Source of the DNA: Chiridota heheva
Taxonomy: Eukaryota > Echinodermata > Holothuroidea > Apodida > Chiridotidae
Direction of reading: 5' to 3'
Assembly (NCBI GenBank): GCA_020152595.1
Contig: JAIGNY010000589.1
Coordinates: forward strand, 1,215,001 to 1,279,000
DNA length: 64,000 nt
The translations under genes were made by a program, and so were the position numbers. Below, in pieces: positions 10,201 through 59,886 of the stretch. The notes beneath the pieces were generated by a model. That model was not told where the DNA came from, did not search any database, and saw nothing but the letters and a program-made list of their open reading frames with translations. The stretch's first letter is position 1, and the number at the start of each line of letters is the position of its first letter.

Positions 10201-13200
10201 TTTTCAACCAGTTTCTGAGAAGTCACTTGAATTTATTCAATTTTCCTCTCTGAAAGTTGAATATGCATGTTTTTGACCCAGTAAATTTTGTGCCCCCTTT
10301 CCGCCCCACCCTTCTAAATAATGAAAGTCAAATGAATTGATTTTTAAGAGTCAGATTTCATATTAAAATTTCCTTTATTTTCGTGAAATTTGCTTAAATT
10401 TTCGTGCAATTTCTTTGTATTTATTTGTTTTTAATTTTCGAACAATTTCTATCAATTTTGGAAAATTTCTTTCAATTTTCGTAAAATATCCTTTATTTTT
10501 GCGAAATTTGCTTCAATTTTTTGTGCAATTTTTATCATTTTCGGGAAACTTTTTTTCAAATTTCGAGAAGCTATTTTTCATTTCCGTCATTTTTGTGCAG
10601 TTTTTTTTTCTTCAAATTTTGGGAAATTTTCTTTTAATTTTCAAGAATTTTGGCCAATATTTGCAAAGTTTTCTTCAAAATTCAAGTTTATCTTGAAAGT
10701 TTTCTTTAAAAGTCAAGTTTATCTTGAAAACAAAATGCACCCTTTAATATATAGTGGCCCACTCGCTCTACAGCTCTACACGTATTTGTACATGCCTATA
10801 GTGTATCGATCACACACACCATCAAATTTAGGACCATTTTCACGACTTGACTTAAGACCCTCTTTGAAAATCCTGGATCCACCCTTGTTTGGGTGAAAAA
10901 TATACTTTATTATTGTGCTCCGCTTGACTCTGTCCCACATGCCATCCCACCCTGTCCCACATGCCATCCCACCCTCATCCCAATTTCTCCATCTACTAAT
11001 CATCATGCCATTTTCTACCCAACATTCTTTCCTCTAACTTTCATCTCCTCATCCTATCCCAATAATCCTACTCCTTATCTGTGCACCTGCCCCCTCATCT
11101 GTGTACCTGCCCACTCATCTGTGCACCTGCCCCCTCATCTGTTCACCTGCCCCGGCATCACCAATTTCTCTCCCACGTAAAGCAAATATCCTGCCTGGTC
11201 CAATCCACTTACTCTCAAGCTTACATGCCCCATTAACCGCCCCCACCCCACATGAACCTTCAGACAGAAGAAAACATACGTATCAGAGTTTAATCAAGTT
11301 ACTGTCTATAGGCTGCTATACTAATCTTCGTGTAAGACATATATTTCTTCAAAGGAATCTTTCATGATGTTACGTGAACTACTATTCTAAATTTTTCCCA
11401 TAGCCAATGGATTGATTGAGTTCCCCAATTTTCTAGAGGCGTTAGCGAGGTGCATTATTGAAACCAGGCGTAGAGAGGATATCAAGGAGGCATTCGCTGT
11501 GTTTGACAGGGACGGAAGTGGAACTATTGAGTGAGTCTTCTTATTCACGTAAGGTACAAAAACCCAAGAGAACTAGAATTTTGGCACTCTGTAGAGTGCG
11601 TACCTCCGCCCGTTTAATAATTCCAGCATGTCTAAAACATTTTAAGTTCAACCTCATCACCAATAGGCCTACAATCTATCTCAGAAATCCTACCATTAAT
11701 TTGTATCCCCAAATCTCTTCCCCACTTCTAAATTCTTATCAGTATTTGTCATTTGCAATATAAATACTTCAGGCTTACAGTATCCAGGTATCTACCCTCA
11801 AGGGTGGATTCAGAGAGTCGGGGCCATGGTCCCCTGATATTTTCACGATTATATCTTTTTACCCTGAATGAGATAATTCTTAGTCACGGTTTATGCAAAT
11901 GTTCTTTAATTTTCGGGAAATTTCATTCGATCTTTGAGAAATATTCCTTCATGGTGTGCAATTTTCCGAAAATTTCCTTTATTTTGGGGCTCTTTTTCTT
12001 GATTTTTGATCAATTTTTTTTCAATTTTAGGGAAATTTCCTTCAATATTTGTGATATCTTTTTCAATGTTTGCGAAATTTCTTTCATTCTCGTGCAATTT
12101 TGAAAAATTTCTCGTTTGGGGCAATTTTCGGTTTCGGTTTCTTTCAAATTCCTTCAATGTTTGGGATACCTCTGTCAAATTTGAGGAAACATCTTTAATT
12201 CCCGTGCCATTTTCTTCCATGTTCGGCTTCCACTCCTGTCTACCTTGATTGTTTCAGTTTCATTCCGGCTTAGCAATCATTGTTTCTTTTCAGACAAGAT
12301 TCACATTCCATCCTTTTCCATTCCATTCTTTTTCATTCAGGCCTTGAAAAACATTTAATTTTATTTCCTTTGATACCCAACCACAGTAGATTTGAGTTTC
12401 TTTAGAGTGTAGAAAATGGATTGTTTGGAAATCCTTTCAGAGCTTGAATTCAATGTTCAGCACATTCCATTAGAAAGTTTTAATTAGAAGACTTGTGAGA
12501 TCTCATCCAAAAACATCCACACCCCTCCATTTGTGCACTTCCCATATCCCAATATGTCTCAATTTTTAATCCCCTCTTCCTTCTGCAGCAAACACAATCA
12601 AAATTTAATCCAAATCCAATCCTCACTTCTTGAGATATGTTGACGGCAAAAAAATCCCCAAAACAGACAACAAACGGAGCGATTAAGTCCTCTTCAAATG
12701 GGTAAAGACAAAATAATCTATCAATATCTTATTCCGTTTGGGAGATATTTTAAACTTCTCTCTTATGTAGAAATAAATGGTGTGGAAAGTCTACTCAGTA
12801 TACTGTATTTCAAATTTACTTTCAGAATTTCTGGCTTTTAGTTCTCGTGTTTCTCTCAATTTCCCTCTGTATTCTTTCCTTCCTACCTCTGGAATAATCT
12901 TACCTCTCAAACACAAATTGACACTCGCTGTCGTGGTGCCATTAAGTCCTCTACAAACAAACAAACAAACATAATTTTGTTTCACAACAATTCCTTATGG
13001 TCCTTTATAGTTATAGTTTCTCTATTATATTATAGTTTCTCTATTATGTTATAGTTTCTCTATTATGTTATAGTTTCTCTATTATGTTATAGTTTCTCTA
13101 TTATGTTATAGTTTCTCTATTATGTTATAGTTTCTCTATTATGTTATAGTTTCTCTATTATGTTATAGTTTCTCTATTAGGTTATAGTTTCTCTATTAGG

Positions 13201-15045
13201 TTATAGTTTCTCTATTAGGTTATAGTTTCTCTATTAGGTTATAGTTTCTCTATTAGGTTATAGTTTCTCTATTAGGTTAGTGTTTCTCTATTAGGTTAGT
13301 GTTTCTCTATTAGGTTAGTGTTTCTCTATTAGGTTAGTGTTTCTCTATTAGGTTATAGTTTCTCTATTAGGTTATAGTTTCTCTATTAGGTTATAGTTTC
13401 TCTATTAGGTTATAGTTTCTCTATTAGGTTATAGTTTCTCTATTAGGTTATAGTTTCTCTATTAGGTTAGTGTTTCTCTATAAGGTTAGTGTTTCTCTAT
13501 TAGGTTATAGTTTCTCTATTAGGTTATAGTTTCTCTATTAGGTTATAGTTTCTCTATTAGATTATAGTTTCTCTATTAGATTATAGTTTCTCTATTAGGT
13601 TATAGATTCTCTATTAGATTATAGTTTCTCTATTAGATTATAGTTTCTCTATTAGGTTAGCTTCAATAGCTTCCTGACATATCCAATGGTTTTCAAACCA
13701 CAATCTGCAGATCTGGAAATATGCAAGAAAATACATACAAACTTTAAGGAATGTGATGATGTACCATCACAACTTGCCTGGTTTCAGTCGTTTATACATA
13801 AATGAGACCGAGCTTTTAACTTTTAACTTAAATATATTCCGTAATAGAATAAAATGTGGTAGTTTCATCACTGTTTAGTTTCTAACTCTATAAAGTGTCC
13901 ATTCAGATCAAATGAACCAGCTTTATATCCAAACTGGCGCTTCAATCATGTATATCTTGCATTGTAATTGTTTGTCTCTTAGTGTGATTTGATGTCCCCT
14001 CAATTTCGGTAGACATTAAATTGTGTTTAATTTGTGGCCCCTTCTGTTCTCCCCTCCATCATCCCCCCCACTTCCCTCCCCCTCCCCCTCCCCCTCCCCC
14101 TTCTTCACACACACACACTTTCTGTAGGCAAATCCCAACCATGCGTAGGCTTACACGCTTATCTGTCATCCAGCAACTCCTCAAATATTCAGTAAGGACA
14201 TTCTGTCAATCATCAGGTTCGTCATTTCCTGGGATAGGGAATCCCGCCCTCCCCCAAAACACACACTTTTAAGAGGGTAGTAAAAAAAATACACTGCTTG
14301 AAAGAATGTTATCCCCAATTTTCATGAGAATTGTCAATCATGGTCACGTGTCTGAAGGAACGCTTATGAATCAAAGATAGCTTAGGGGCATGGCCACAAT
14401 TATCGATCATGGAAATATTGACCTTCATGATTTGATGATTGCTTGTCATCGATGATTTTAGCAATCCCATGTTTTGTAAATTTATTTATCAGCTCTCGAG
14501 AAATTATAAACATTTTTCGCAAAATCGGTGACCGAAAATTGGAGGCGACAGCGAAAGAAATATTTGCAGAGGCCGATATTGATCAGAATGGCGTCATCAA
14601 TTACGAAGGTACGTTTTCAAAAGTGTGCACTCCATAGCGAGCGTTACCAGCAGGGCGGTAATTCTCCTTCACAAATTGGAGGAGGAGGGGAGGGGTGGGG
14701 GTGGGGACATGGGGTCAAGCGTTTCTTCCACAAAGTAGGGTGACAGTGATGTATATATTTTTTATTTTGCCCGAAAAAGGACAAATCGCACAGGAATTAC
14801 AGCCCTGATCACCAGCGCCACAATTTTGGGGGCAGTCTCACTTGGGTGGGTAATCTGGTGAATAAGTCTTGTTAGAAACAGTGATAAACAGTTTGCAGTC
14901 AGACCATGTGATGAAAAATATTGTCCCTCACACTCACCCCACCCCTCTCATAGCCACATTTATTTCAGGTGAAAAAGTGTCATAATGAAGCACTATTGCA
15001 TGCTTTTTTCCTTCAGAATTTGCGAACCTTCTGGTTGCAGAGTAA
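1234..15045 (+). CDS. Calmodulin-like EF-hand protein, six exons
   Basis: Predicted exons are 1234-1236, 5428-5473, 8142-8285, 11404-11530, 14493-14608 and 15017-15045; all junctions are GT-AG and phases agree (0,1,1,2,1), giving 154 aa against 149 for calmodulin. The ATG followed at once by GTGAGT is the classic calmodulin-gene first exon. Four EF hands are visible: loop 1 at residues 26-37 (DEYDDGTIPTKK), loop 2 at 62-73 (DEDANGLIEFPN), loop 3 at 99-110 (DRDGSGTIDSRE) and loop 4 at 135-146 (DIDQNGVINYEE). Loops 3 and 4 have the acidic residue at position 12; loops 1 (Lys) and 2 (Asn) do not, and loop 1 has Tyr at position 3. The C-lobe should therefore bind calcium and the N-lobe poorly (inference from the EF-hand rule). 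It could be a calmodulin, troponin-C or centrin relative; the ADQLTEGEI start favours calmodulin. It faces D2HGDH tail to tail. Confidence 0.85.
1830..2285. repeat. Degenerate GGAAATTTCC-type tract, locus 1
   Basis: About a dozen imperfect units of roughly 30-40 bp, each with a core like GGGAAATTTCCTTCATTTT. It lies in intron 1 of the calmodulin-like gene. The open frames here are by-products of the T-rich repeat. The same kind of tract recurs at 10360-10700 and 11885-12250. Confidence 0.75.
2540..3735 (+). mobile_element. Non-LTR retrotransposon 3' end (I-type, RNase H region)
   Basis: A 5'-truncated, frame-broken LINE. Around 2871-2965 it reads like an RNase H segment (VIFFDSESVLTGIL), then ANKVANNAL near 3050. 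A C-terminal Cys/His motif (CPTCNTELSIKHILLRC) is read in the frame at 3249-3494. The 3' end is a short conserved tail ending TCGCGGTACAGTTAAACATC followed by a CAAAC-rich repeat (3675-3730). RNase H plus this Cys/His end is typical of the I superclade. It sits in intron 1 of the calmodulin-like gene in sense orientation. Related 3' ends occur at 12915, 17195, 25205, 30106 and 41922. Confidence 0.8.
3822..4442. repeat. Direct repeat pair of about 112 bp
   Basis: 3822-3933 and 4331-4442 are near-identical and share the stretch around AAACTGTCCAATTTTGCA through CTCGGAACTTATACTT. They are separated by about 400 bp of unremarkable AT-rich sequence. Confidence 0.8.
4716..5211. mobile_element. MITE with inverted termini of about 35 bp
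   Basis: The left end starts ATTATTAGTCC and contains GCATGCCTATTAAT. The right end carries ATTAATAGGCATGC and ends GGACCAATAAT, the imperfect reverse complement. The roughly 495-bp element has no coding capacity. A possible 3-bp target duplication (GAA) flanks it; the family is unknown. Confidence 0.65.
5428..5473 (+). CDS. Exon 2 of calmodulin-like gene
   Basis: It encodes ANASYADQLTEGEIN plus the first base of the next codon. The acceptor is ACTCAG and the donor GTAAGT. ADQLTEGEI matches the start of calmodulin. Confidence 0.85.
5568..6040. repeat. Foldback element with C-tract and G-tract arms
   Basis: The left arm (polyC with AGTAAATTTTGGCCCC) pairs imperfectly with the right arm (GGGGCCCAAATTTAC with polyG). 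An inner pair GTGAATTTGGTTC / GAACCAAATTCAC is perfect. It lies in intron 2 of the calmodulin-like gene. Confidence 0.6.
6450..7226. mobile_element. Non-autonomous element with long inverted repeats, interrupted by a SINE
   Basis: The left end (CATGTCCATTTTACAATGAA, then GAGGACTTCAAA) is the inverted match of the right end (TTTGAAGTCCTCTTTCAT ... GATGGACATG). The similarity extends inward past GGAGATAT..AAGTTTA and GTGTA.AAA.GACTG, giving arms of about 170 bp once the SINE at 6516-6755 is ignored. Related pieces occur at 12690-13903, 19590-20690 and 39590-40600. Confidence 0.7.
6516..6755 (+). mobile_element. tRNA-derived SINE
   Basis: The head is tRNA-like, with an A-box-like TGGTGTAGCGG and a B-box-like GGGTTCAAGCC. 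The body is about 170 bp and ends in a short CGT repeat. A perfect 11-bp target duplication, TTCATCAATCT, flanks it at 6505-6515 and 6756-6766. It inserted into one arm of the element at 6450-7226, so it is the younger of the two. Confidence 0.85.
7227..8141. other. Intron 2 remainder, no recognised feature
   Basis: AT-rich intron DNA with C-runs near 7282 and the exon 3 acceptor at its end. No repeat or coding signal is recognised. Confidence 0.4.
8142..8285 (+). CDS. Exon 3 of calmodulin-like gene (EF hand 1)
   Basis: The acceptor is TTTTCAG and the donor GTAAGT. It encodes residues 17-64: EF hand 1, the linker helix (KLTEVMKSLGQNL) and the first residues of loop 2. Confidence 0.9.
9230..10140. 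repeat. 157-bp tandem repeat with an inverted flank
   Basis: About four imperfect units of roughly 157 bp run from 9230 to 9830, marked by AGATATCTTGATG at 9381, 9538 and 9696 and by CCCCACCCCTC. From about 9880 to 10140 the same sequence appears inverted twice (AAGATATC.CAAGAACTGAT.ATTGGATTTG), so the locus can fold back. A degenerate single unit lies at 12470-12660. It is in intron 3 of the calmodulin-like gene. Confidence 0.75.
10360..10700. repeat. Degenerate GGAAATTTCC-type tract, locus 2
   Basis: T-rich imperfect repeat with cores such as GAAATTTGCTT and GGGAAATTTTC. It is the same kind of tract as at 1830-2285. Confidence 0.7.
10915..11160. repeat. C-rich repeats including a 20-bp minisatellite
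   Basis: CTGTCCCACATGCCATCCCACC is duplicated near 10930. A 20-bp unit close to CATCTGTGCACCTGCCCCCT is repeated about five times at 11060-11155. A related sequence lies at 18490. It is intronic; the open frames here reflect low complexity. Confidence 0.7.
11404..11530 (+). CDS. Exon 4 of calmodulin-like gene (EF hands 2 and 3)
   Basis: The acceptor is TTTTTCCCATAG and the donor GTGAGT. It carries the rest of loop 2, the central linker, and loop 3 through its ninth position. The final two bases form a split Asp codon with exon 5. Confidence 0.9.
11885..12250. repeat. Degenerate GGAAATTTCC-type tract, locus 3
   Basis: Repeated cores such as AGGGAAATTTCCTTCAAT and CGGGAAATTTCATTC, in intron 4 of the calmodulin-like gene. 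Confidence 0.7.
12690..13903. mobile_element. Second member of the long-inverted-repeat family, expanded by a minisatellite
   Basis: The left part (AAGTCCTCTTCAAATGGGTA, TATCTTATTCCGTTTGGGAG) and right part (GATGATGTACCATCACAACT, GTTTCAGTCGTTTATACATAAATGAGAC) resemble the arms of the element at 6450-7226. Between them sit a LINE 3' end with a CAAA tail (12900-12970) and the 19-bp minisatellite. Confidence 0.5.
13009..13659. repeat. 19-bp minisatellite, about 34 copies
   Basis: The unit is close to TAGTTTCTCTATTATGTTA. Variants occur in blocks: ATTATG units first, then ATTAGG units, a block with GTTAGTG, ATTAGG again, a short second GTTAGTG block, and finally ATTAGATTA units. It lies in intron 4 of the calmodulin-like gene. 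Confidence 0.95.
14493..14608 (+). CDS. Exon 5 of calmodulin-like gene (EF hands 3 and 4)
   Basis: The acceptor is TTTATCAG and the donor GTACGT. It completes loop 3 with its position-12 Glu and encodes the helix IINIFRKIG and most of loop 4. Confidence 0.9.
15017..15045 (+). CDS. Exon 6 of calmodulin-like gene (C-terminus)
   Basis: The acceptor is CCTTCAG. It encodes EFANLLVAE followed by TAA, completing loop 4 and the last helix. No clear AATAAA signal is seen in the next few hundred bases. Confidence 0.85.
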
Positions 15046-17497: not shown

Positions 17498-17842
17498 AAT
17501 TTTGACAATAGTTTGTACAGTTTTGACAATAGTTTGTACAGTTTTGACAAGAGATTGTACAGTTTTGACAATAGTTTGTACAGTTTTGACAATAGTTTGT
17601 ACAGTTTTGACAATAGTTTGTACAGTTTTGACAATAGTTTGTACAATTTTGACAATAGTTTGTACAGTTTTGACAATAGTTTGTACAGTTTTGACAATAG
17701 TTTGTACAGTTTTGACAATAGTTTGTACAGTTTTGACAATAGTTTGTACAGTTTTGACAATAGTTTGTACAGTTTTGACAATAGTTTGTACAGTTTTGAC
17801 AATAGTTTGTACAGTTTTGACAATAGTTTGTACAGTTTTGAG
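17498..17842. repeat. 21-bp minisatellite, about 16 copies
   Basis: The unit is close to TTTTGACAATAGTTTGTACAG, with one divergent copy (GACAAGAGATTGTACAG) near 17547. Because 21 is divisible by three and the unit lacks stops in several frames, long open frames appear on both strands (17411-17890 +, 17278-17898 -). These are by-products; no gene is supported. Confidence 0.95.
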
Positions 17843-19513: not shown

Positions 19514-22500
19514 CTGTAATGAACAAAAAAGATGCATTGAAGGATTATTAGTACAGTGATCAGACAAGTTCAACTTATATGAAAGAGGAATTTAAATGAC
19601 ATAACAAGGTGAAAAAACTACTTAAATATCTTATTCCGTTAAAGAGATATTCGATTAAAAGTTCTGTCTCATTTGTGTAGAAATAAGTGGAGAGGAAAGT
19701 CTACTTTAGGAGGCTGGCATCCTCATCTTCACTTGCACAACAACTGAAACAGTATTTTTGAAGAAAATTTATCAACCTTTTTTGGTATCTGATATTTTTT
19801 ACTTTCTTCAGGTGGAAAACTACAGTTACTTCAACATGATCCTCTTTGATTATTTTCACCAATGGTTTGTAGCCACAAAATTGCAGGAGAAATACAGAAA
19901 AACTTTTGTGGAGAATGTGATGTCACAACTAGTCTTCTGTATTCAGTCATTTCTACAAAATAAAAGGACAATAAGAAGGAACAAAAAGATGAAGAACATG
20001 TTAAAAAAAATTATTCTTTTAAGGAGATACTCAAGTTTCATTTGAATTTTGTACAAATGACTGAAAACAGACTACAGTAATTACATTACGTGCTCCCATA
20101 CGTTTCTTAAGGAGATACTCAAGTTTCATTTGAATTTTGTACAAATGACTGAAAACAGACTACAGTAATTACATTACGTGCTCCCATACGTTTCTTAAGG
20201 AGATACTTAAGTTTCATTTGAATTTTGTACAAATGACTGAAAACAGACTACAGTAATTACATTACGTGCTCCCATACGTTTCTTAAGGAGATACTCAAGT
20301 TTCATTTGAATTTTGTACAAATGACTGAAAACAGACTACAGTAATTACATTACATGCTCCCATACATTTGAGTCTTTGCGCATTTTATCTAATCACTTTC
20401 TGAGATTTTGAAACAAATTTAACAATGGCTGCCACAAGAGTACTTGAATGCAAGAATCTAGTCATATTACTTTTATTTATCCCCCAATAAATTTTACAAA
20501 AGCAATTTCCTCAGTTAGTGTAAATTTCATGATTACTTTTCCAAAGATTACATTCAAAATTGTTCAGAAAGTGAGGATATGACATCACTCAGATGTCTAC
20601 AGTAGACTTTCTACACCAGTTATTTCATACAAACGGTGCAGCTTTTAAAATTCAATAACTCCTGAATGGAACAAGATATTTATTTAAGTAGTTTTTTGTG
20701 TTCTCAGAGAGAGGTGGAGTGGCTCGGTGGTTAAGGAGTAAAGCTCGTATTCAAAAGGTACTGGGTTGATTCCCGTCGTCAGCGCTGCATTGTGTCCTTG
20801 TGCAAGACACTTTACTCTACTTGCTTCAGTCCACTCAGCTGTAAAATGAGTACCAGCACTGCTCAGGGGGATTAATCTGCGATGGACTAGCATGCCGTAC
20901 AGGGGGAGCCATGTACTCTCATCCACATGTGACATGGAAACCAGAGATTAAGCACCGGCTCTATGAGCCTAATGGCTCAGATGGATTTACCTTTGTGCTC
21001 ATTTTTTTTTTTTTTTGGCCTCTGTCATTTAGAAACACAATTCCAGAATAAACCTTTTATGAATACTTGTAGAGCACCAACCTTCACTCTTGTAGTGTCC
21101 GTAGCAACTGTTCCATCCTGAATATAGTTTTTATTCATGGCGCCCTCTAAAAATGCATTAAGCTTCTCCTCATCGTGATCTTTGTTTGAGCCCGAGGTTT
21201 CCACAATGATATAAAATGGATACTCCTGGCCGAGTGGATTTGTTACGTCATTGTACTTTTCTTGTACCTAAATAAGAAATAAAAATAAAGGTTAAGAGAA
21301 AATACTTTAAATGGCTTCACTGCACTCAGTGGCATAACGGCTATGCACTCTAGGGTGCCAGAACACCGGGCGCCCCAACCAAGGGTATGCCTTGATAAGT
21401 GCCCATACAAAAAATAATCCCCTCTGAATTATCCTGATATCGCCCCGGTAAAGAGCCCCTAAATAATCTTACTGCCCTTCATGCCAGTTTCACCCCCACT
21501 TCAACTAAAGAATCATTTTTTTCCTCTGGCTTCGCCTGCCCTATTTTCACACTCTTACAAATAGTACCCGCATCCTACAAGTACTGCAATTAATTATAAG
21601 ATGTTCATGTATTAAAACAAATTTGAAAGTTTCAAATCATTTTCATACCATTTAGCAAATCAGATGATTGATAAGTGCTGGATAATACATAGATGAAATC
21701 AGTACCAGTTATATTACAAGAGGCATTGATGAAGCTAATGAATAACAAAGCTGCAGGCAAGGATAATATAACTGTCCAGTTGTTAAAAGCTGATATATGC
21801 ACATCAGTATTATGGCTTGACGAGCTGTTCAGAATTGTATGGGAAAAGGAAGTTATACAAAAATCTTGGAAGCAAGGACTGATAACAAAAATACCTAAGA
21901 AAGGCAATACTACTGTATGCAATAACTGGCGCAGAATAACTTTAACATCCGTTATTACCAAGGCAAAGTATTTGGAAGAGTTCTAATCGACAGAATTAGA
22001 AACAGTGTTGACAGTAAGATCAGAGATAAACAGGCTGGATTTAGAAGAGGAAGGAGTTCCACTGAGCAAATTGTCATCCTGCGCAACAATCTAGAACAGG
22101 TGGCTGAATGGCAGTCAACCATATATATCGCCTTGGTTGACTTCGAAAAGGCGTTTGAAAATAATGGCAGCCTATGGTATTCCGTAAACAATAATATGTT
22201 TGATTAAAGCGTTATATAAAGACATTGAATGTGCAGTTTATAGATGGTGGTGTAAAATCTAAATGGTTTCAAGTCAAAAGTGGTGTAAAGCAAGGTGATG
22301 TAATGTCAGGTTCTTTTTCTGATAGTGGTGGACTGGCTGATGAGGAAAACGACTGATGATAACAGGAGTGGAATTAGATGAAAGTTCATGTCAACCCTTA
22401 AGGACTTGGATTTTGCTGATGATATTGCTCTACTTTCCTCTACATATCAACACATGTAAACCAAAGTGACCAGGCTCAATCAGTATGCTTCACAAACTGG

Positions 22501-28500: not shown

Positions 28501-31500
28501 ATACATACTAGATCTTTGCTTTCCATTTTTCATTTCTTTCGCATTCAACAACATTGATACAATCATACATCAGTTAGGTACAATAAATAGAACACGTTTT
28601 CAATGACAACACACATACATTTTCCTTTAAAAATGATCTTAGGGAAGGACAGTATCAACTTTTTAGACTTTTACGGTTTTTCAGTTTTTGAAAAAAACGT
28701 AAAACCGAGTATATTTATAAACATTAATAGCCGGTTAAAACCAGAAAACCAGTATCCCATGAAACTTGACCTTCATTTACTAGTGAGGTGTAGGTATGGT
28801 GGAGGGGGTGATCAGGGGTCAATAGCTGATGTCACCATGCTGCTTAGATTGCGTCTGTATGAGATAAATGTTTGAAATATCACAGATCTCTCATCATCCT
28901 TCGCTTGATATGTATTCAAGACAACCATGGCTAAGGCCATAATTTTCATCCATGAAGGAGAAGGGGGGACGGGCTGGAGGGTGGAAGGGACGGGGGGCAG
29001 GACAGGGGATGGGGGCGGGACAGGAGGGAGGAGCAGATTCAGGAAAAATCACAAATGAGGAGAACATGTTTGTCATCCCAACTCTGCTGCTCAGAATTTC
29101 ATACTCTTTGTAAAAAGAACAATATTTGTGTATCTGTCCATTGAACCTTTAAAAGCCTTGACACTTACCTTCATACTTTCACTGTCCATCATTTCAAATG
29201 CTGACAAGACCTCACCAAGCATCTGTTTGCTGTATTTGAGTGTATCCAGCACAGCTTTAAAGTCAGAAGCTCCTGCAAAATAAAAATATATATATTTTTT
29301 TTTCTTCTTTTAATCTGATTTCCCCATCATACATATATAGCTATTCATACATCAGTAAGACTAATGTTTCAATTAACTTTTCAAATTTTGAATTTTTGAT
29401 ATCTTTATGAAGACATGATGAAAATCTGTTGCTATAGATTTTTAGTCCAAAATCCTCAAAGCGTACAAGGTTGAACAAAATAATCACTTAAAATCACTCA
29501 TCAATAAACAAACAAAACCTTCACTGTTAAATACCATTCCAATTCTAAATTATCACATCAAGCTAGACACTTTGACCACAGGGGAATAATTTTGTCCTTG
29601 TGTTGAGTATAAAAGTCAGTACAGCTGCAATGATATTTGTTTCCTATCAAGTCAGAATATGACCATGGAAAGTGAGGTGAAGTGTGTGCATTGTAGAAAT
29701 AAGAAATCCCTGGTGACATTGCTAATTGCTTGTGCTGGATTGTGGTTTCTGTTGTGAGCAATACATAACGACCCCAACAGATTTGAAATTTTGTCAGGGC
29801 TTAAGACACAAAATGTATTGTGAGGTTCAGACTTAATATTATGTAATTAATTGTTGTAGGTTCTTTTTGTTTCGTGGCACATTGACAACTCAAGTCAATA
29901 GTGTCGCAGAGGTTTTATTTTTTCTCTATTTTTGAATATAAATGCAAAGAAAATTAATTTCCCATAGTTCAATTCTTTTGTATTTTTCTCCTTATCATGG
30001 CTTTCATACTATAGGTACAGAATAAGTGTGTTTTAAGTGAGTTTCCTTAAAATATTGTCATTCATACATCATTAAGATCAATGTTTGAATTCACTAAGTT
30101 TGTTTGTTTGTTTTGATGAGGTCTTAACGGCACCATGACAACGAGGGTCAAATTGTGCCTTCACTAAGAAAAAATTCTGAAAGTTTTATAAACACACATG
30201 CTGTACTCATGTAATGCAGGTTTGGGTTATCAAACTTCATGTTGTTTTATGGCACATTGAGACTTCAAGTTAATAGTCCCACAGAGGTTTGAGGAAAAAG
30301 GTTGTTTTAGATCAAACTTAAAGAAAAAATGATGCTAGACTGTGAAAAACTTACATGTGGGCAGCAGTACCATTGAGGATGCAGAACTGTGTTTGTACAT
30401 GTATTGCATATATTAGTGATGTAAAATGCAACAGAACTGTGTTTGTACATGTATTGCATATATTAGTGATGTAAAATGCATAGTGCTGAGATGTGAATGG
30501 GGAAAAAGAATATGGAAATCAATTGGCTGGCAAATCAATCAATCAATCAATCGATGTTATCTCTATACCGCCAAAAACTAATTAAATTGCACTAGGGCGC
30601 TTAACATGAACAAGAAACTAAAGTTTGTGGGCAAGTGCAAAAGATAGTGTTTCAGCAGTGCTTTGAAAATGTTGATGGATTTTGCCTTTCTGATGTGTAC
30701 AGAGGGAATTCATCATGTGACTCTAACTCACCTGGAAGCCATTTTGCCGGGCAAGAGTTGCTGCGTTTCATGCGTCTTCACACAGATTAGTCACATCACA
30801 CGTACAACAAACATATTGCCTGCTAAGTTACCAGTTCAGCAAATTTGATTGTTTTAGATCGAGCGCGATTTTACTTCATATTTTCTAACGAATCATATAT
30901 TTAGTGGTATAAAAAGAGTAACTTTTACGTGAATGCCATCTGATTGTTCGTTATACGCAGACAAAGCCTACATACCTGGCATAAAGTACTCACTGCAAAT
31001 CCTAGTGTGGACTGAAGGTTGAAAGACGTTGCGTTGTACAGTAGAAACCCACTTCAAACGTCGATCAGATGGAAATCAAGAAAACGTCTTTTTATTCCCC
31101 GGCACACGTCTATTAGTGCAACCAACGGCACAGTAAGATTCTGGCATAACTTTATCTTACAAAAATTATCTTATGTAACAACATGCAAGCGTTTGTAAGT
31201 CTATATAAGTCTACAGCAGACCATCGTTCTAGCCCGACAAAATGGCGATGTAAACAAAGTCCCGTGACCTCATGACGTCAGCTAAAACACCCTTACAGGC
31301 ATTTAATGCCACTTCCGAGGAGCATAATAGGAAATGGCTCTGTCAGTCTCAGTCTTATGACGGGTGCGTGGCTCAAAACATAGTGGTGCAGATAAAGTGG
31401 AACAAAGGCACCCAGCTGTGGCCAGTTTGAAGATGTAGCAGGGGAAAGATGTAATCAGGTGACTGTTGGTAGAGGGGACTTATATGTAAGGAATAACACT

Positions 31501-34500
31501 TTAAAATCTATTCTTTGCCAGATAGGCAACCAATGGAGCTCAATAAATTCACTGGATATTCGGTCAATTTTTTATTCGCTGAACATTTAAAAGCCTTTTA
31601 TTTAAGCAATGTCTTACATAAGCCAGTCATCAAACTGTTACAATAGTCAATTCTAGAAATGACCAGTGTGAGCACTGCCAATTTAGTGGAATTAGGTAGG
31701 TAACAGTTTCCAAGGTTTCCAATATTTGTGAGTTGGAAATTGGCAGATTTAGTGACATTAGCTACATGACTACTCAGTCATTCCACTGTCAAACATCACC
31801 CCAAGATTGGCAGATTTAGTGACATTAGCTATATTAGCAGACATGGTCATTCCACAGTCAAACATCACCCCAAGATTGGCAGATTTAGTGACATTAGCTA
31901 CATAAGCAGACATAGTCATTCCATAATCAAACATCACCCCAAGATTGGCAGATTTAGTGACATTAGCTACAAAAGCAGACATAGTCATTCCATAATCAAA
32001 CATCACCCCAAGGTTGGCAGATTTAGTGACATTGACTACATGAGCAGACATAGTCATTCCATAATCAAACATCACCCCAAGATTGGCAGATTTAGTGACA
32101 TTAGCTACATAAGCAGACATAGTCATTCCATAATCAAACATCACCCCAAGATTGGCAGATTTAGTGACATTAGCTACATAAGCAGACATAGTCATTCCAT
32201 AATCAAACATCACCCCAAGATTGGCAGATTTAGTGACATTAGCTACAAAAGCAGACATAGTCATTCCATAATCAAACATCACCCCAAGATTGGCAGATTT
32301 AGTGACATTAGCTACATAAGCAGACATAGTCATTCCATAATCAAACATCACCCCAAAGATTGGCAGATTTAGTGACATTAGCTACATAAGCAGACATAGT
32401 CATTCCATAATCAAACATCACCCCAAGATTGGCAGATTTAGTGACATTAGCTACAAAAGCAGACATAGTCATTCCATAATCAAACATCACCCCAAGATTG
32501 GCAGATTTAGTGACATTAGCTACATAAGCAGACATAGTCATTCCATAATCAAACATCACCCCAAGATTGGCAGATTTAGTGACATTAGCTACATAAGCAG
32601 ACATAGTCATTCCATAATCAAACATCACCCCAAGATTGGTCATTCCATAATCAAACATCACCCCAGATTTTAGTGACATTAGCTACAAAAGCAGACATAG
32701 TCATTCCATAATCAAACATCACCCCAAGATTGGCAGATTTAGTGACATTAGCTACATAAGCAGACATAGTCATTCCATAATCAAACATCACCCAAGATTG
32801 GCAGATTTAGTGACATTAGCTACATAAGCAGACATAGTCATTCCATAATCAAACATCACCCCAAGAAGATTTAGTGACATTAGCTACAAAAGCAGACATA
32901 GTCATTCCATAATCAAACATCACCCCAAGATTGGCAGATTTAGTGACATTAGCTACATAAAGCAGACATAGTCATTACATAATCAAACATCACCCCAAGA
33001 TTGGCAGATTTAGTGACATTAGCTACATAAGCAGACATAGTCATTCCATAATCAAACATCACCCCAAGATTGGCAGATTTAGTGACATTAGCTACATAAG
33101 CAGACATAGTCATTCCATAATCAAACATCACCCCAAGATTGGCAGATTTAGTGACATTAGCTACATAAGCAGACATAGTCATTACATAATCAAACATCAC
33201 CCCAAGATTGGCAGATTTAGTGACATTAGCTACATAAGCAGACATAGTAATTACACAGTCAAACATCACCCCAAGATTGGCAGATTTAGTGACATTAGCT
33301 ACATGAGCAGACATATAATCAAACATCACCCCAAGATTGGCAGATTTAGTGACATTAGCTACATAAGCAGACATAGTCATTCCATAATCAAACATCACCC
33401 AAGATTGGCAAGATTGGCAGATTTAGTGACATTAGCTACATAAGCAGACATAGTCATTCCATAATCAAACATCACCCAAGTGATTGAGCAGACATAGTCA
33501 TTACATAATCAAACATCACCCCAAGATTGGCAGATTTAGTGACATTAGCTACATAAGCAGACATAGTCATTACATAATCAAACATCACCCCAAGATTGGC
33601 AGATTTAGTGACATTAGCTACATAAGCAGACATAGTCATTCCATAATCAAACATCACCCCAAGATTGGCAGATTTAGTGACATTAGCTACATAAGCAGAC
33701 ATAGTCATTCCATAATCAAACATCACCCCAAAATTGGCAGATTTAGTGACATTAGCTACATAAGCAGACATAGTCATTCCATAATCAAACATCACCCCAA
33801 GATTGGCAGATTTAGTGACATTAGCTACAAAAGCAGACATAGTCATTCCATAATCAAACATCACCCCAAGATTGGCAGATTTAGTGACATTAGCTACAAA
33901 GCAGACATAGTCATTCCATAATCAAACATCACCCCAAGATTGGCAGATTTAGTGACATTAGCTACATAAGCAGACATAGTCATTCCATAATCAAACATCA
34001 CCCCAAGATTGGCAGATTTAGTGACATTAGCTACAAAGCAGACATAGTCATTCCATAATCAAACATCACCCCAAAATTGGCAGATTTAGTGACATTAGCT
34101 ACATAAGTGCAGACATAGTCATTCCATAATCAAACATCACCCCAGATTTAGTGATTGACATAGTCATTCCATAATCAAACATCACCCCAAGATTTAGTGA
34201 CATTAGCTACATAAGCAGACATAGTCATTCCATAATCAAACATCACCCCAAATTGGCAGATTTAGTGACATTAGCTACATAAGCAGACATAGTCATTCCA
34301 TAATCAAACATCACCCCAAGATTGGCAGATTTAGTGACATTAGCTACATAAGCAGACATAGTCATTCCATAATCAAACATCACCCCAAGATTGGCAGATT
34401 TAGTGACATTAGCTACATAAGCAGACATAGTCATTACATAATCAAACATCACCCCAAGATTGGCAGATTTAGTGACATTAGCTACATAAGCAGACATAGT

Positions 34501-37500
34501 CATTCCATAATCAAACATCACCCCAAGATTGGCAGATTTAGTGACATTAGCTACATAAGCAGACATAGTCATTCCATAATCAAACATCACCCCAAGATTG
34601 GCAGATTTAGTGATTTAGTGACATAATCAAACATACATAAGCAGACATAGTCATTCCATAATCAAACATCACCCCAAGATTGGCAGATTTAGTGACATTA
34701 GCTACATAAGCAGACATAGTCATTCCATAATCAAACATCACCCCAAGATTGGCAGATTTAGTGACATTAGCTACATAAGCAGACATAGTCATTCAAACAT
34801 CACCCCAAATTCAAACATCACCCAAACAAGATTGGCAGATTTAGTGACATTAGCTAAGCAGACATAGTCATTACATAATCAAACATCACCCCAAGACAGA
34901 TTTAGTCAGCTTCAGACATAATCATAATCAAACATCACCCCAAGATTGGCAGATTTAGTGACATTAGCTACATAAGCAGACATAGTCATTCCATAATCAA
35001 ACATCACCCCAAGATTGGCAGATTTAGTGACATTAGCTACATAAGCAGACATAGTCATTCCATAATCAAACATCACCCCAAGATTGGCAGATTTAGTGAC
35101 ATTAGCTACATAAGCAGACATAGTCATTACATAATCAAACATCACCCCAAGATTGGCAGATTTAGTGACATTAGCTACATTAGCAGACATAGTCATTACA
35201 TAATCAAACATCACCCCAAGATTGGCAGATTTAGTGACATTAGCTACATAAGCAGACATAGTCATTCCATAATCAAACATCACCCCAAGATTGGCAGATT
35301 TAGTGACATTAGCTACATAAGCAGACATAGTCATTCCATAATCAAACATCACCCCAAGATTGGCAGATTTAGTGACATTAGCTACATAAGCAGACATAGT
35401 CATTCCATAATCAAACATCACCCCAAGATTGGCAGATTTAGTGACATTAGCTACATAAGCAGACATAGTCATTCCATAATCAAACATCACCCCAAGATTG
35501 GCAGATTTAGTGACATTAGCTACATAAGCAGACATAGTCATTCCATAATCAAACATCACCCCAAGATTGGCAGATTTAGTGACATTAGCTACATAAGCAG
35601 ACATAGTCATTCCATAATCAAACATCACCCCAAGATTGGCAGATTTAGTGACATTAGCTACATAAGCAGACATAGTCATTCCATAATCAAACATAGATTT
35701 AGTGACATTAGCTACATAAGCAGACATAGTCATTCCATAATCAAACATCACCCCAAGATTGGCAGATTTAGTGACATTAGCTACATAAGCAGACATAGTC
35801 ATTCCATAATCAAACATCACCCCAAGATTGGCAGATTTAGTGACATTAGCTACATAAGCAGACATAGTCATTCCATAATCAAACATCACCCCAAGATTGG
35901 CAGATTTAGTGACATTAGCTACATAAGCAGACATAGTCATTCCATAATCAAACATCACCCCAAGATTGGCAGATTTAGTGACATTAGCTACATAAGCAGA
36001 CATAGTCATTCCATAATCAAACATCACCCCAAGATTGGCAGATTTAGTGACATTAGCTACATAAGCAGACATAGTCATTCCATAATCAAACATCACCCCA
36101 AGATTGGCAGATTTAGTGACATTAGCTACATAAGCAGACATAGTCATTCCATAAAGATTGGCAGATTTAGTGACATTAGCTACATAAGCAGACATAGTCA
36201 TTCCATAATCAAACATCACCCCAAGATTGGCAGATTTAGTGACATTAGCTACATAAGCAGACATAGTCATTCCATAATCAAACATCACCCCAAGATTCAC
36301 CCCAAGATTGGCAGATTTAGTGACATTAGCTACATAAGCAGACATAGTCATTCCATAATCAAACATCACCCCAAGATTGGCAGATTTAGTGACATTAGCT
36401 ACATAAGCAGACATAGTCATTCCATAATCAAACATCACCCCAAGATTGGCAGATTTAGTGACATTAGCTACATAAGCAGACATAGTCATTCCATAATCAA
36501 ACATCACCCCAAGATTGGCAGATTTAGTGACATTAGCTACATAAGCAGACATAGTCATTCCATAATCAAACATCACCCCAAGATTGGCAGATTTAGTGAC
36601 ATTAGCTACATAAGCAGACATAGTCATTCCATTCCATAATACATAAGCAGACATAGTCATTCCATCACCCCAAGATTGGCAGATTTAGTGACATTAGCTA
36701 CATAAGCAGACATAGTCATTCCATAATCAAACATCACCCCAAGATTGGCAGATTTAGTGACATTAGCTACATAAGCAGACATAGTCATTCCATAATCAAA
36801 CATCACCCCAAGATTGGCAGATTTAGATTAAGCAGACATAGTCATTCCATAATCAAACATCACCCCAAGATTTATTTAGTGACATTAGCTACATAAGCAG
36901 ACATAGTCATTCCATAATCAAACATCACCCCAAGATTGGCAGATTTAGTGACATTAGCTACAAAAGCAGACATAGTCATTCCATAATCAAACATCACCCC
37001 AAGGTTGGCAGATTAGTGACATTGACTACATGAGCAGACATAGTCATTTCACGATCAAACATTACCCTAAAGTTCCTAACAGGGTCAGACTGAATAGGTA
37101 TGTCAACACCAGCGATATTTACAGATGGAATATTAGCCGCCTTTGCAAGCTGGGAATTTAATCCAAACACAATACGCTCCGTTTTCTCTGCATTCAGTTT
37201 CAAGGCATTGTGTATCATCCACTGCAGTACATCAGCAACACAATGCTCAAGTTTTGACACAGCAAGTTCAATCAATGTAAGTCACTGCTAATGGAATAAT
37301 ATTAGATCAAATTGTGAAAATAAGCACAAGACAACAAGAACATACAAACTCACCTAAAAATGCCAAATTAACAGACTGAGGTCTTGGAGCACAAAATATG
37401 GAAACTTTTGTAATAAGTCCAAGCGTTCCTTCTGAGCCAATGAAAAGCTGTTTTACATCGTACCCGGTGTTGTCCTTTCGCAAAGATGACAAACAGTCTA

Positions 37501-40500
37501 GCATCGTACCATCAGCCAAAACCTGATTAAAAAGAAAAATAGTTTTAATGCTGTGAAACATTATTCATAATTCTTCATAGCACAATAGAAATGCTCTTAT
37601 GAAAAGCATGACAAGTACAATGAGAGGTAGAATTTATCTTTCTTGGACACTAAAAAGTTTTACACCAGATCTGATCAAAATCCATTCATAACTTCTTAAG
37701 ATATATTGTTGAAAAATTCAGGTGAAAACTCCATCCATCTTTGATGGTGGAGCTAGTAACAATCAAGTTGAGTGCACACATCTACCATCCTGAAAATAAT
37801 GTCTACAACAAGATATGTCTTTTGCCTTCATTTATACTCAAATGTCAAGAATTCCTCATTTTAGTCTGGTGGCTATATCTTTGTGACACGTACGATTAAA
37901 GCATCAAACTTTGCACATTTATTGTTTAGGTTCTATTTAAAAATTCTGGACAGGTGTGATTTTTGAAGCCTAGGTCAAGAGTCAAACCTAAATTAGAATA
38001 TATAATTTCATTAAGATAGTGTTATTTTTCAGTTTTGACCCATGCAGAGACCTATCAAAATTTCAATGACATTTACATGTTTCCAGCCACATCAACATAA
38101 GTATATGTCGAACATATAACAAACTATATCTTTTAGGATTCCTTGTGACCAGCCGAGTAACTTGGTATCCTATAGAGGTACTCCTCATGATGTCACACAC
38201 GCTTTTACACACAGTAACTTGAAATCTTGAAGGGCAGTTTTTCGCAAGCTTTTGTTGTTTGCTCATATATGTTAATCATGTATTATAAAAAAGCAATCCT
38301 TGTTTTCTTTACAATCAGTTGAGTAATTTTACTTTTCGTTAGTTTTAACACAGTATACGCTTTTACAGACAGTAACTAAAATCTTGGAGGGCAGTTTTTA
38401 GCAAGCTTCTGTTGTTCGCTCATATATGTTTATCCTGTATTTTGAAAAAGCAATCCTTGTTTTCTTTACAATTAGTTGAGTAAATTTACTTTTCGTTAGT
38501 TTTAACACATCATACGCCTTTACGCACAGTAACTTAAAATCTTCGAGGCAGTTTTTCGCAAGCTTCTGTCATTTGCTCATATATGTTTATCATGTATTTT
38601 GAAAAAGCAATCCATGTTTTCTTTACAATCAGTTGAGTAATTTTACTTTTTGTTACTTTTAAAACAACATACGCCTTTACGCACAGTAACTTGAAATCTT
38701 CGAGGGCAGTTTTTCGCAAACTTATGTCGTTTGCTCATATATGTTTATCATGTATTTCGAAAAACAGTCGTTGTTTTCTCTACAATCTGTCAAGTAATTA
38801 TAGTTTTCGTTAGTTTTAACACAACATACAGTTATCCTGTATTATATGTGTGTGATAAAAATGAAAATACTTATGTTTTCCCTGTTGTTTTTTATCATGA
38901 CAGTGTAGTCTTTTCCCTATACATCTGCATGTTAATTTGCCCTCCAAGACAAAACAGTGACGTCATTGTAGAATACCTCTATTCACTAGGATTGGGGTAT
39001 TTTTCAGTTTTGACCCCTGTACAGTGCATCGAAAGTTCAATGACCTTTTATATTTTCCAGACATAGCCACATAATCATAGGTCAAAACATATAACAAAAA
39101 AAACCATTGTTGATTCCTTATGACAAGCCAAGTAATTTGATACGCTTTTCGACCCCGTACAGTGATCTTTTGATCTTGTTTAACCATTAGACAAAGCTGC
39201 TGGAAACTTATCGGAAAAGTTTGCATGTTATTTCAAATTTTCAAGTACAGCTATTGTTCAAGTAAACCCCTACCCCTCTTCACCCCAACCCTGCTCCCCC
39301 TTTCAATGTTGACAAAATATTTCATTAGGAAATACAGAGACATGGAAATCTACTGTCAACATTTTTACCAACATTGAGAGGGGGAACGGGGGTGTCTCAA
39401 TGAGTTTTGTCCAAGATTGTAGGCTTCAAAAATCGGGAACACCTTTGTAGAATTGTTTCATACACCCTAAACAATAATTGTGCAAAGTTTGTTCCTTTAA
39501 TCACGTGTCACAATTTTTTGGTTCAGCCATGGGACTATTTTACTGACACAAAAAACCTCTTGTATCATAGAGGGCTAAAAGATTAATTGAATTGTGAAGA
39601 ATCTGCGAAGGAAAAAATACACAGAACCATTTGATGAATGTGAGTATGTGATGTCACAACTAGTCTGATGTCAGTTGATTTTACATAATTGAGAAAGAAA
39701 TTTAAACTTAAATATCTCTCTAACATTACACTTAATTCTCGCTATAAATTTTTAGTCTTTTCACCCGCAAGAACCTCCATTTCTGTGGGTATGACTTTTA
39801 GACTGCTAGTAGCAATTAAGAAACCAACCACCGATAACCTAGTGATTTTACGCATCAGTTATTACACTTTCTTATCATACGTATGCAAACAGAAGAACAT
39901 CTTGTGAAGAGTCAGGTTATTGTGGATATGGTTACTGCAGGGCTAAGTCCAGGGCTAAGTGGATGGGCAATAGACTGGAAATTTATAGCCCAAGTTATTC
40001 ATCATGAAAAGGATATGATTTTGAACAATTTCATCACCATTTTGTTTCTTTGTTTTTAAATGTGAAGAAACTGCTAAGGAAAAAATATGCAGAACCTTTG
40101 ATGTTAGTGAGGATGTGATATCACAACTAGTTTGATTTCACTTGTTTTTACATAATTGAGAGAGAAATTTAAATTGAAATACCATATTCAAGATAACATA
40201 CTAATAGCGCCTCTGCTTTAGTAGCACCCACTCAACATTTTTTGACTGATAACATAATTTATTTGATTCATTTAAAGATTTAAAATCAATTTTTTACATT
40301 ATTTGCTTATGACACTCATGATTTATCTGTGGTGGCAGGTTGTGGTCAATGTGGGGTTAGTACAGAACCAGTTTACACAATGCAATTTAAATAGCACACT
40401 GTACTGTAACATGGCCCGGGACATGGGTGCTTCTTAGGAAAAAACTTTGGGCCTAAATTTGGTGCAATTATATTTTCCTAAGTGCCCCAGGCGCTTTTTA

Positions 40501-48568: not shown

Positions 48569-48749
48569 CCCCACTTAGCATAGCGGGGATATTCATGAGA
48601 GTTTTACTTACCTTCCATGCTATAAATATGCAATCTGGTCACATGACCTGATTCTAACACACTTGACCTCCATATAACCTCTACTAACCCTTACTTAATA
48701 TTCCACCAAGGCCTTAATGAGAGGGGAGGCGGGCATGCATGGAAGGTAT
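48569..48749. mobile_element. Truncated copy of the MITE at 45851
   Basis: It starts CCACTTAGCATAGCGGGGAT and matches the first 180 bp or so of that MITE (CTTACCTTCCATGCTATAAA, GAGAGGGGAGGCGGGC). It is cut where the LINE begins. Confidence 0.8.
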
Positions 48750-50305
48750 TTTAGTGGCTATGCACAAGAAGAAAATGACGGCCCTCGTCTCATTAGACCT
48801 CATCGCTGCATTCGATACTTTGAATCATAGTATTCTTTTGAACCGCCTGTCGACTCGTTTTGGGATCAAGAACAGTGCATTTCTCTGGCTAAAATCCTAC
48901 TTAGAGAACAGATCTCAACATGTCACAGTTAATGGTCTCAACTAGGAAGCATTATATTTTGGACATCAGTGTTCCACAAGGGTCCATATTAGGTCCTCTG
49001 TTGTTTACCTTGTACACTGCACCCCTTACTGACATCATAAAGCGCTATTCCATTGGATATCATTTCTATGCTGATGACACTCAACCTTACATTTCTTTTG
49101 ATAATTAAGATATTGCTGATCAAGTTAATTGTCTGGAAAACTGTTTAAGACATCAAGAAGTGGATGCTTACTATTTTTCTAAAACTCAATGATGATAAAA
49201 CCGAATTCATTTTGACTAGCAGTAAACTTCCCTGACACAACTGCCATCTTTATCGTTAAATGTTAACAGAGTAAGAGTAAAAATTTCATCGAAAGTGGAA
49301 AACCTTGGCAATATTTTTGATTCAGAAATGTCCATGCATAATTTCATTACTGCAAAATGTCTAAGTGCTATGTATAGTTTGCGTTCTATTGCTCAAATCC
49401 GTCACTTCTTAGATATTGATACAACTAAGACTCTTATACAGGCTCTTGTAATTTCTATGATTGATTACGCTAATAGTCTTTTAATTGGTGTAAATAAGTC
49501 GTTAATTCATCGTCTACAGGTTGTTTAGAATGCTGCTGCCAGATTAATCATGACAACTAGCTTAAGAGACCATATTACACCTATTCTGTTTACACTTCAC
49601 TGGTTGCCCATAGAATGCTGTGTGCATTTTAAAGTTTTAGTTTTTTGTTTTAATTGTTTACAAGGCACTGCTTTAAAGTATTTAATTGAACTCATTTAAC
49701 CATACAAACCAGTACGCTCTCTTAGACCCTCCAATAAAAATCTTCACCAAGTTCCCAAAACTATCAGTAAAACTGGCGATCGCTCTATTGAAGTTTTTGT
49801 CCCCAAGGAATGGAACACCCTCCCTTTATGTATAAGAAATGCTCCGTCACTTACTTCTTTTAAACGTGATTTAAAAATGCATTTTTTAAACAGTATTTCA
49901 GTGACTTACTTTAACTTTTTAAATATTATTTTTATTTGTAGTTTTTTCATTCCAGGTTTTACCTTTTAATGCATTTTAATTGTTTGATAACTTGTGTATT
50001 TCTCTTACTAGTGTTTTGTGTTTAAGATTGGTAGTTTTTACTGTTTTTTTATTAACTGTTTGATCTTATTCATGTATCTAAACTGAACGCTTAAAACTTA
50101 ATTATTTATTTTATTCCTATAGTCTACTGCTGATATTAGCTTTTGGGGGTAGTCTAGGCCTACTTTTAGGTGTTTAATCATTTCTATTTTGTTTCTTTTA
50201 TGTATTGATAAGTAATTAACTTTTTATTTTTTCATGCTCTTGTAAAGCACTTAGAGCTTTCTTTTAGAATAAGTGTTATATAAACATAATCTAATAATAA
50301 TAATA
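48739..50305 (+). mobile_element. Jockey/CR1-like LINE, 5'-truncated
   Basis: RT motifs run in order: SLDLIAAFDTLNHSILLNRL (palm), [15 protein letters not shown], the catalytic YADD box ([10 protein letters not shown], about 49067-49095), ENLGNIFDSEMSMHN and LVISMIDYANSLLIGVNKSL, then the C-terminal HWLPIECCVHFKV region. Frame shifts and stops at 48944, 49108 and 49528 show it is inactive. The 3' end (GCACTTAGAGC then a TAA-type repeat at 50291-50305) is typical of this group. It abuts a truncated MITE. Confidence 0.85.
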
Positions 50306-53560: not shown

Positions 53561-53826
53561 CAAGATCGGAATGATTTCTTTGATGGGACAGATGTTATGG
53601 ACACCAATGTTTCTGTTAACAAATGGTTTCATCCTTCTATTGAAAATAGATGGAATATATTTGCTGAATATAAAAGAAAAAAAAGATTCAAAGCTTAAGA
53701 TGGGCTCAAATAAAAAACTCATAAAAATTGTCAATTGCTTCTGTACCGCGTGATGTTAAGTCTTTTAATTTGTCTGAAGATGTATTTGTATTCAATTTTA
53801 GGGATTTTATTGCATTGGTCCAATCA

Positions 53827-54125
<299 letters not shown>

Positions 54126-58303: not shown

Positions 58304-59886
58304 ATGTCATCTGAGAGTAGGGAAAAGTTTCCAACAGCAAAGGGGCAAGAGTATACGATGGAGATGAAGTTCAAGGCTCTAAGAAGTGCTTGGAAAGATC
58401 TCAAAGCTGTTTCAGAGGAAATAGAGTCCCTAGTTGAAGAAAGCCCATCAAATGAAAAAGTGAAAGACGCTTATTCTAACTGGTTAAGCAAGTATGAACA
58501 TTTCATGAACATTAATGAAGAATATTCCAAATTGCTTAATGAAGAGGCTAAAGTAGAGCATTTAGATAATTGGTATGATAAAAGGATAATTTATGTCACA
58601 AATGTTAAGTCAAATGTAGAAAAGTGGTTTGCTATTAAGTCTAAGGAGTTAGGTTCTTCTTTTAAAGCTGGGTCTAAATCGGAATCAAGGTCATCGGTGT
58701 GTAGCAAAACGTCATCGATGAAACTGACTGAAATAGCTAGAGAAAAGGAATTACTTAATAAAAAACAATTATTACAGGAACGGCAGGCCTTAGAAAAGAA
58801 GCTGAAGCTGTTAGAAATAGAGATGCAGCATCAAGCAGAAGCACATAAAATTGAGAAGGAACTAGCGGAGTCCAGAGGAAGAAGCCAGGTTTTGGAAGAA
58901 ATTGAAGATCAAGAAAATAGCCAATGTCTAGATGATGAGAGTGTAGGAGAAGTCAGCAACCCAAGCAGAGGGGATGAAAGAGCTGCATTGAAGGAGGAGA
59001 AGCTAGACCTCGCAGGACAGTTGCCTGGCACTCGGAGCAACAGGACAGCAAAAAACTTGGTGAAGTCTTGATCGAAATGCAGAAACCAAAACTAGAGATT
59101 AAGAAGTTCAGTGGGGATTGCATGGAATTCAATAAGTTCATGCGACAATTCAGGTCTAGAATTGAAGGGTTGTGCTCTGACGATGAGAAGATTGCCTACT
59201 TAGAGCAGTACACTAATGGTGAAGCTCATCAAATTGTGGTTGGGTTTTCATATCTGGATGCTGCGGTTGGCTATCCGGCTGCTATTAAGGAACTGAAACG
59301 AAGATATGGGGATCCTGAGGTTATTGCTAACTCATATGTCCAGAAGGTGTTGAACTGGCCACCCATTCGTGCAGATGACCCCAAGGCTCTAGATGAGTTT
59401 GCAGTCTTTCTGAAAGAATGCGAAGCAGCTACCAAGTGTGTTGGGGGTTTGGGTGTCCTGGAATTTTCTGAAAACTTAAAACATATTCTTCAGAAGCTTC
59501 CATTCTATCTGCACGACAGATGGAGGGGTATCGTGCAAGGTCTTCGTCACAAGGGACGAAGAATTGGGTTCAACAATTTGGTCGAGTTCGTTCAGACGGA
59601 GTCAGTCAAGTTAAATGACCCAGTTTATGGCAGAAATAATTTGGTGCCAGAGAGAAAACAAAAATCAGATCATGGAAAGGCCAAGATTACCGCTGTGACC
59701 AACGTAGAAGACAGGAGTCTTAAATGCTGGAATTGCAAGGACCCTCATGTCTTTGCTAGTTGCCCAAGGCTTCATGATATGACCCTCGACGAACGGAGAG
59801 ATCTAATACGTGGTCTGAAGTTGTGTTTTAGGTGTCTTACCAAGGGCACATGTCAATTACATGCCGTGCAGCCAGTGGGGCTGTGA
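58304..59886 (+). pseudogene. BEL/Pao gag region
   Basis: 58304-59071 encodes a charged coiled-coil N-terminal part (ATG at 58304; REKELLNKKQLLQERQALEK). 59068-59886, in the next frame, carries the DUF1759-type core (KLEIKKFSGDCMEFNKFMRQ ... FVQTESVKLND) and zinc-knuckle-like cysteines (CWNCKDPHVFASC, CFRC). The two are probably one protein split by a frame change at an A-run (59050-59055). Confidence 0.85.

Follow-up and report, generated by a model that had tools for sequence, protein, structure and literature searches.

We consider it rather likely that the 69-bp tandem array in the window (the whole 64-kb stretch of Chiridota heheva DNA that was analysed) belongs to a family of VNTR-like minisatellites at several loci, all derived from a single non-LTR retrotransposon family, and sequence comparisons suggest that its arrays were seeded at about the time of insertion and then grew locally. 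The array lies inside a 5'-truncated LINE insertion in intron 4 of D2HGDH, and the same segment of the reverse transcriptase (RT) occurs in tandem in other copies of the LINE whose host flanks differ from those in the window. Many of the insertions probably came with a seed duplication, or acquired it at insertion, and this seed grew at each site; births of new arrays also seem to occur. The features of the window and the sizes of the other arrays are summarized in Table 1.

Table 1. Features around the D2HGDH array (positions in the window) and unit counts of the arrays at other loci
Feature	Position	Strand	Basis	Units
D2HGDH coding exon 4	37352..37522	minus	homologs	
LINE RT part 5' of array	37076..37271	minus	homology to LINE RT	
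69-bp minisatellite array	31739..37075	minus	TRF and independent decomposition	
5' edge units U1 and U2, diagnostic variants	36938..37074	minus	decomposition	
582-codon open frame in array	34912..36660	minus	ORF list	
3' edge units	31742..31877	minus	decomposition	
LINE RT part 3' of array	31305..31738	minus	homology to LINE RT	
Insertion within LINE	30719..31304	minus	broken THAP domain 31150-30971	
LINE 3' end, ATTG/GATT tail repeat	30540..30718	minus	sequence	
D2HGDH coding exon 5	29166..29279	minus	homologs	
Array L009				13
Array L010 (C1883)				20
Array L011 (C1615)				32
Array L012				10
Array L013				10
Array L014				4
Array L015				13 of 56 bp
Array L016				7 hits: two 69-bp units (second cut short), rest 25-bp repeats
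Array L017				6
Array L018				5
Array L019				2
Array L020				2
Array L021				14 of 52 bp

A period of 69 was found by TRF over 31739-37067, split into several overlapping rows, and the decomposition gave 87 rows with 5333 aligned bases, equivalent to 77.3 units of 69 bp, in agreement with the original prediction of a 69-bp unit in about 77 copies. Seventy of these rows reach at least 60 of the 69 columns and 37 are exact copies of the consensus; the 5333 bases contain 53 mismatches to it (1.0%), and the identity between units is 0.98 (mean distance 0.011). The periodicity is imperfect, with 36 phase breaks, and mild microhomology was found at the 25 gapless breaks among them (1.52 bp vs 0.75 expected; P = 0.0016). 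By eye, the junction of the 69-bp unit, between GCC and AACCTTGGGG, joins sites with only AA in common, and at the 25-bp junction AATG is common to both joined sites. Variants were shared between adjacent rows more often than in shuffles (6 vs 1.84; P = 0.012), sharing at lags 2 to 6 was not above that of shuffled rows, and the variant pair of units U1 and U2 was found again 4991 bp away, at 32084-31947, with 141 bp matching exactly. The recurring pair and the sharing between adjacent rows can both be accounted for by segmental duplication inside the array. Among the loci compared, no other array is as large and none has units as alike, and its unit consensus is 0.69-0.93 identical to those of other loci. 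The single-strand DNA fold of three units was no better than that of shuffles (z = 0.38); in the viral contigs searched, an exact 30-mer of the unit did not occur and the RT alignment found no locus.

The LINE carrying the array is 5'-truncated at ATTGATTGA (37276-37268), which matches the element's own 3' tail repeat, and it ends in this repeat on the 3' side. As the original prediction had it, RT sequence lies on both sides of the array. When the two parts were joined as a query, six RT relatives were found among 20 protein-search candidates (one of them, P0002, is a record from Amphiura filiformis), and three of the six are 59-61% identical over 99-100% of the query; the RVT_1 profile itself reached only E = 0.086. 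By the look of the RT, the element may be of the CR1/L2-like clade. Between its RT part 3' of the array and its tail lies an insertion with a broken THAP domain (PF05485, E = 2.8e-7), which is absent where the LINE 3' part and tail abut (for example in L010, L012, L017 and L019). A short inverted GCCATTTTG is seen near the ends of this insertion (31246 and 30738).

On homology, the array unit is a single 23-codon RT-coding segment of the LINE. The 23-residue segment is present once in all six RT relatives, followed by NFQL in P0001-P0003 and P0005, and among near-complete units the one at 31877-31809 scores nearest to the RT of these relatives. In single-copy relatives within the genome (L030, L031, L041 and L042 among them), a single 69-bp unit directly joins the 5' flank to the 3' flank. 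A protein search of the genome, with 150 of 6744 candidates scored, gave 151 matches; among its first 24 rows, 20 cover residues <=3 to >=133 (17 of these 20 without stops, most of them from more distant families), and each spans 393-399 nt, which leaves room for one unit only. A second LINE in the window, at about 48700-50150 on the plus strand, also has the segment once. LINEs of the family lacking the unit between the two flanks would have told against the origin from a LINE RT segment; the relatives carry one copy between the same flanks, so this part of the original prediction is right.

The host gene was identified by the human D2HGDH structure 6lpn, which matches the exon neighbouring the array (E = 7.2e-26), and homologs from one sea cucumber, two acorn worms and one starfish served to place seven coding exons. 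The relative of highest identity is that of Apostichopus japonicus (66% over 99%), followed by Ptychodera, Glandiceps and one further record (64%); the top match by score is a Nelumbo record (54% over 72%). The array sits between coding exons 4 and 5, in sense orientation as read from the sequence, and by arithmetic takes up about 66% of the fourth coding intron (about 8.07 kb), close to the two thirds of intron 4 first proposed; the numbering follows coding exons, and a non-coding first exon would shift it.

A search of the genome (1.10 Gb, 3744 contigs) with the array DNA gave matches on many contigs; the search scored the best candidates only, so the copy counts of the family are lower bounds. 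Twenty places were chosen from these matches and fetched, 13 with several units and seven with one. The 13 loci carry arrays of the RT segment with 2 to about 32 copies (Table 1; several of the counts include partial or overlapping hits) and periods of 69, 58, 56, 55, 52 and 25 bp. With the window there are 14 loci with arrays from the same transposon segment, ten of them with the 69-bp unit, and this contradicts the unique birth in D2HGDH that had been proposed. The host DNA of the window, about 0.5 kb on each side, had no same-strand match to the 13 array loci (E <= 1e-5). At the edge of the C1615 array there is an AT dinucleotide run of about 930 bp (L011:2978-3908, LINE strand).

We also searched with the 5' flank, which is blind to the array, and examined 30 of the 31 matches as cut-out loci. 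The near family (71-100% identical) comprised 21 rows: seven arrays (the window, C1297, C1010, C1435, C1883, C348 and C3496), 13 with a single unit (partial in L032, L046 and L047, and with no 3' flank seen in L046) and one unclear case (L048). The C1883 array lies beyond an insertion of about 3.7 kb (L010:322-3990) and was seen in L010; the insertion splits the first unit, and its ends look inverted by eye. In the more distant family (L050-L058), none of nine loci had an array; eight of them had one unit, and L055 gave no unit hit. In the other 20 near-family loci, the repeats that TRF found inside the LINE lay mostly at the unit, with 18-bp arrays also in the LINE 3' part of L036 and L040, 48- and 28-bp arrays in L040, small 13- and 25-bp rows in L036, and, in L030 and L046, repeats that reach the LINE part at its 5' edge. 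A segment of the LINE 3' part is itself in tandem in L061 (C1767:1391500-1392750), with five full copies and one partial copy spaced about 137-148 bp.

The age of the first duplication was compared with that of the insertion. At nine loci with 69-bp units, half the distance between first and last units has a mean of 0.067, compared with 0.072 for the terminal branch of the LINE flanks, a ratio of 0.94 (95% 0.68-1.25); with half of the mean distance between these flanks and those of other copies as the reference, the ratio was 0.77. In the window, half the distance between the edge units is 0.114 (66 columns; an indel cluster in the last unit may inflate this value) vs 0.082 for the insertion branch. 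First duplication and insertion thus look similar in age, and a strict start from one copy after insertion, as originally proposed, is not supported. Since the edge units differ so much and the units on average so little (0.011), the array appears to combine an old start with a recent bulk expansion.

Arrays of 69, 25 and 18 bp are common to L013 and L016 at the same LINE positions, the 18-bp array lying in the LINE 3' part (L016:4412-5501 with 60 copies and L013:4989-5254 with 15, LINE strand). In the tree the two loci form a sister pair (99/96), and no match was found between their host flanks, so that retrotransposition of an array-bearing element would best explain the shared arrays, with gene conversion also possible. 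In the tree as a whole, the array copies are not a clade: nine array/single changes were counted vs a shuffled mean of 8.3 when the doubtful L028 was taken as single, and eight without L028. In the AU test, an array clade received P = 0.013 for all arrays and P = 0.059 for the 69-bp arrays only, on a copy tree that is star-like, with bootstrap not settled and L035 and L041 left out. Across loci, first and last units did not group by position: of 36 pairs, 16 were for such grouping and 17 against it (P = 0.19 in a flip test). The 52-bp unit of L021 includes 18 bp seen in no other fetched copy (a 14-base piece of it was absent from all other loci in the set compared), and for this reason the array was probably born locally; the extra 18 bp are taken as host DNA.

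In the reading that we favour, the 69-bp duplication would have arisen around the insertion of the array-bearing copies. In most cases it would already have been present in the source element or have formed during target-primed reverse transcription. At each site the copy number would later have changed by unequal exchange and slippage, and shorter sub-periods would have come from local deletion or from new duplications at short matches. The edge-unit ages near insertion age, together with the shared arrays of L013 and L016, point to a seed at or before insertion in many copies. One source duplication without losses would predict a clade of array copies, and their scatter in the tree counts against it. 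A minisatellite that disperses itself is possible, and we put this forward tentatively: the source LINE would already have held tandem RT thumb copies in frame (69 bp being 23 codons and, in one branch, 18 bp being 6 codons) and would have been copied in the tandem state, in cis or in trans, seeding each site, with the D2HGDH array as the extreme outgrowth of one seed. It is rather doubtful that the RT segment is instead a hotspot, duplicated anew via short matches long after each insertion. The variety of junction classes speaks for such recurrent births (69; 55 in L017 and L018; 56 in L015; 25 bp in L012, L013, L016 and L018; and the 52-bp class of L021 with its private 18 bp), as do the scatter of arrays in the tree, the lack of positional signal in the edge units and the separate array of another LINE segment at C1767. 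Births at random times would, however, be expected to give duplications near half the age of the insertions, not the observed ratio near one; the 69-bp unit is found at ten loci, L013 and L016 have three arrays in common, and the periods of 55, 56 and 58 may have come from 69 by deletion.

Uniqueness, assembly artefact and coding selection were rejected as explanations of the window array. Growth in place from one unit to 77 as a single event in D2HGDH would account for the LINE flanks on both sides and for units that are 98% alike on average, but with 13 other array loci, and edge units somewhat more diverged than a late first duplication would leave them, it is very improbable. An artefact inflating the copy number or scrambling the units is extremely improbable: the breaks are somewhat clustered (spacing CV 1.25 vs 0.96; P = 0.033), but the array is internal to a 1.47-Mb contig, one pair of variant units is found twice in the same order, 4991 bp apart, and arrays of the same segment are found in 13 other contigs. 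That the array encodes a repetitive protein, or is kept for this or another function, is hardly credible. The open frame of 582 codons is there as predicted, and the longest stretch of constant frame exceeds chance (P = 0.0019 with uniform breaks; P = 0.029 and 0.0065 in two shuffles keeping the observed spacings). Against this, the opposite strand is about equally open (577 codons), two of the six frames of the 69-bp unit lack stops, as two or more do in 35% of shuffled 69-mers, 24 of the 36 phase breaks shift the frame, the two thirds expected by chance, and synonymous changes (12 of 53, 23%) are close to the 22% expected without selection. The importance attached to the frame-preserving length thus finds no support, and we judge the 582-codon frame to be incidental, the outcome of repeating a 69-bp unit that has no stop in that frame. 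The three breaks within the longest constant-frame block (-12, +15 and +15) are all in frame, and we read it as a young homogeneous block and not as coding, with a small doubt. When a 255-codon stretch of the array was used as a protein query, none of the 7992 candidates scored matched at E <= 0.001, although repetitive queries may score low. Pfam matches of the array ORF (six unrelated families, none passing by a single stretch) and of three units (seven families, all below curated cut-offs, the best being C8-3_MUC4 at E = 1.6e-4) were rejected as repeat artefacts. No cellular function of the array is indicated.

With a head-to-tail unit of 69 bp, within the range of 10-100 bp, that is homologous to a transposon and has the rest of it on both sides, the array is a TE-derived minisatellite. 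In the size classes given in PMC3389668, satellites have units over 100 bp, so the original label 'megasatellite' is unfit; classical satellite DNA, characterized in PMC6947457 by long, mainly heterochromatic arrays, was likewise rejected for a 5.3-kb intronic array of this unit. The original prediction called such a birth from a coding transposon segment unusual, but TE-derived repeats, including those from LINE ORFs, are in print as far as the cited accounts go, and the present family is a well-preserved further case of a kind already known. The chicken HinfI (SCR1) satellite, described as derived from the 3' UTR and partial ORF2 of the CR1 LINE (PMC9659126), is similarly a tandem repeat that includes part of a LINE ORF2, whereas here a 69-bp RT-coding piece forms arrays inside separate LINE copies. 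PROsat of Phodopus roborovskii and Pvc 20 of Phoca, for which the same account names L1 ORF2 as source, share the relation to LINE ORF2 but are described as satellites, whereas the present minisatellites are still embedded in recognisable LINE copies. Expansion of a TE segment into a VNTR family is also recorded, from a SINE and (GGCAGA)n (PMC6947457, PMC9659126) and not, as here, from LINE RT codons. In human, 7,276 TE-derived repeats, 23% of minisatellites and satellites, are reported, and the mechanisms postulated in that account explain only 6% of the TE-derived tandem repeats (PMC3389668). The present arrays resemble them in birth inside a TE followed by local duplication, and differ in that numerous copies of a single LINE family use the same segment, ten of the 14 loci sharing the 69-bp unit. 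A literature search for expansions within TE coding regions, or for recurrent expansions, found none. How a minisatellite began can usually no longer be traced; in this genome the unexpanded segment exists side by side with two-copy forms, arrays of middle size and an array of 77 copies, all within copies of one LINE that are still recognisable and whose flanks can be dated, so that the timing of the first duplication relative to insertion can be asked, and the family also lets one ask whether retrotransposition can spread tandem arrays.

The 64-kb window is a minisatellite-rich region. Other tandem arrays in it include those at 13010-13659 (19 bp), 17500-17841 (21 bp), 20019-20369 (88 bp), 38195-38829 (157 bp) and 53826-54123 (6 bp), and a BEL/Pao-type element at 58304-63908 on the plus strand has ORFs with DUF1759, Peptidase_A17 (Pao), integrase H2C2 and DUF5641.
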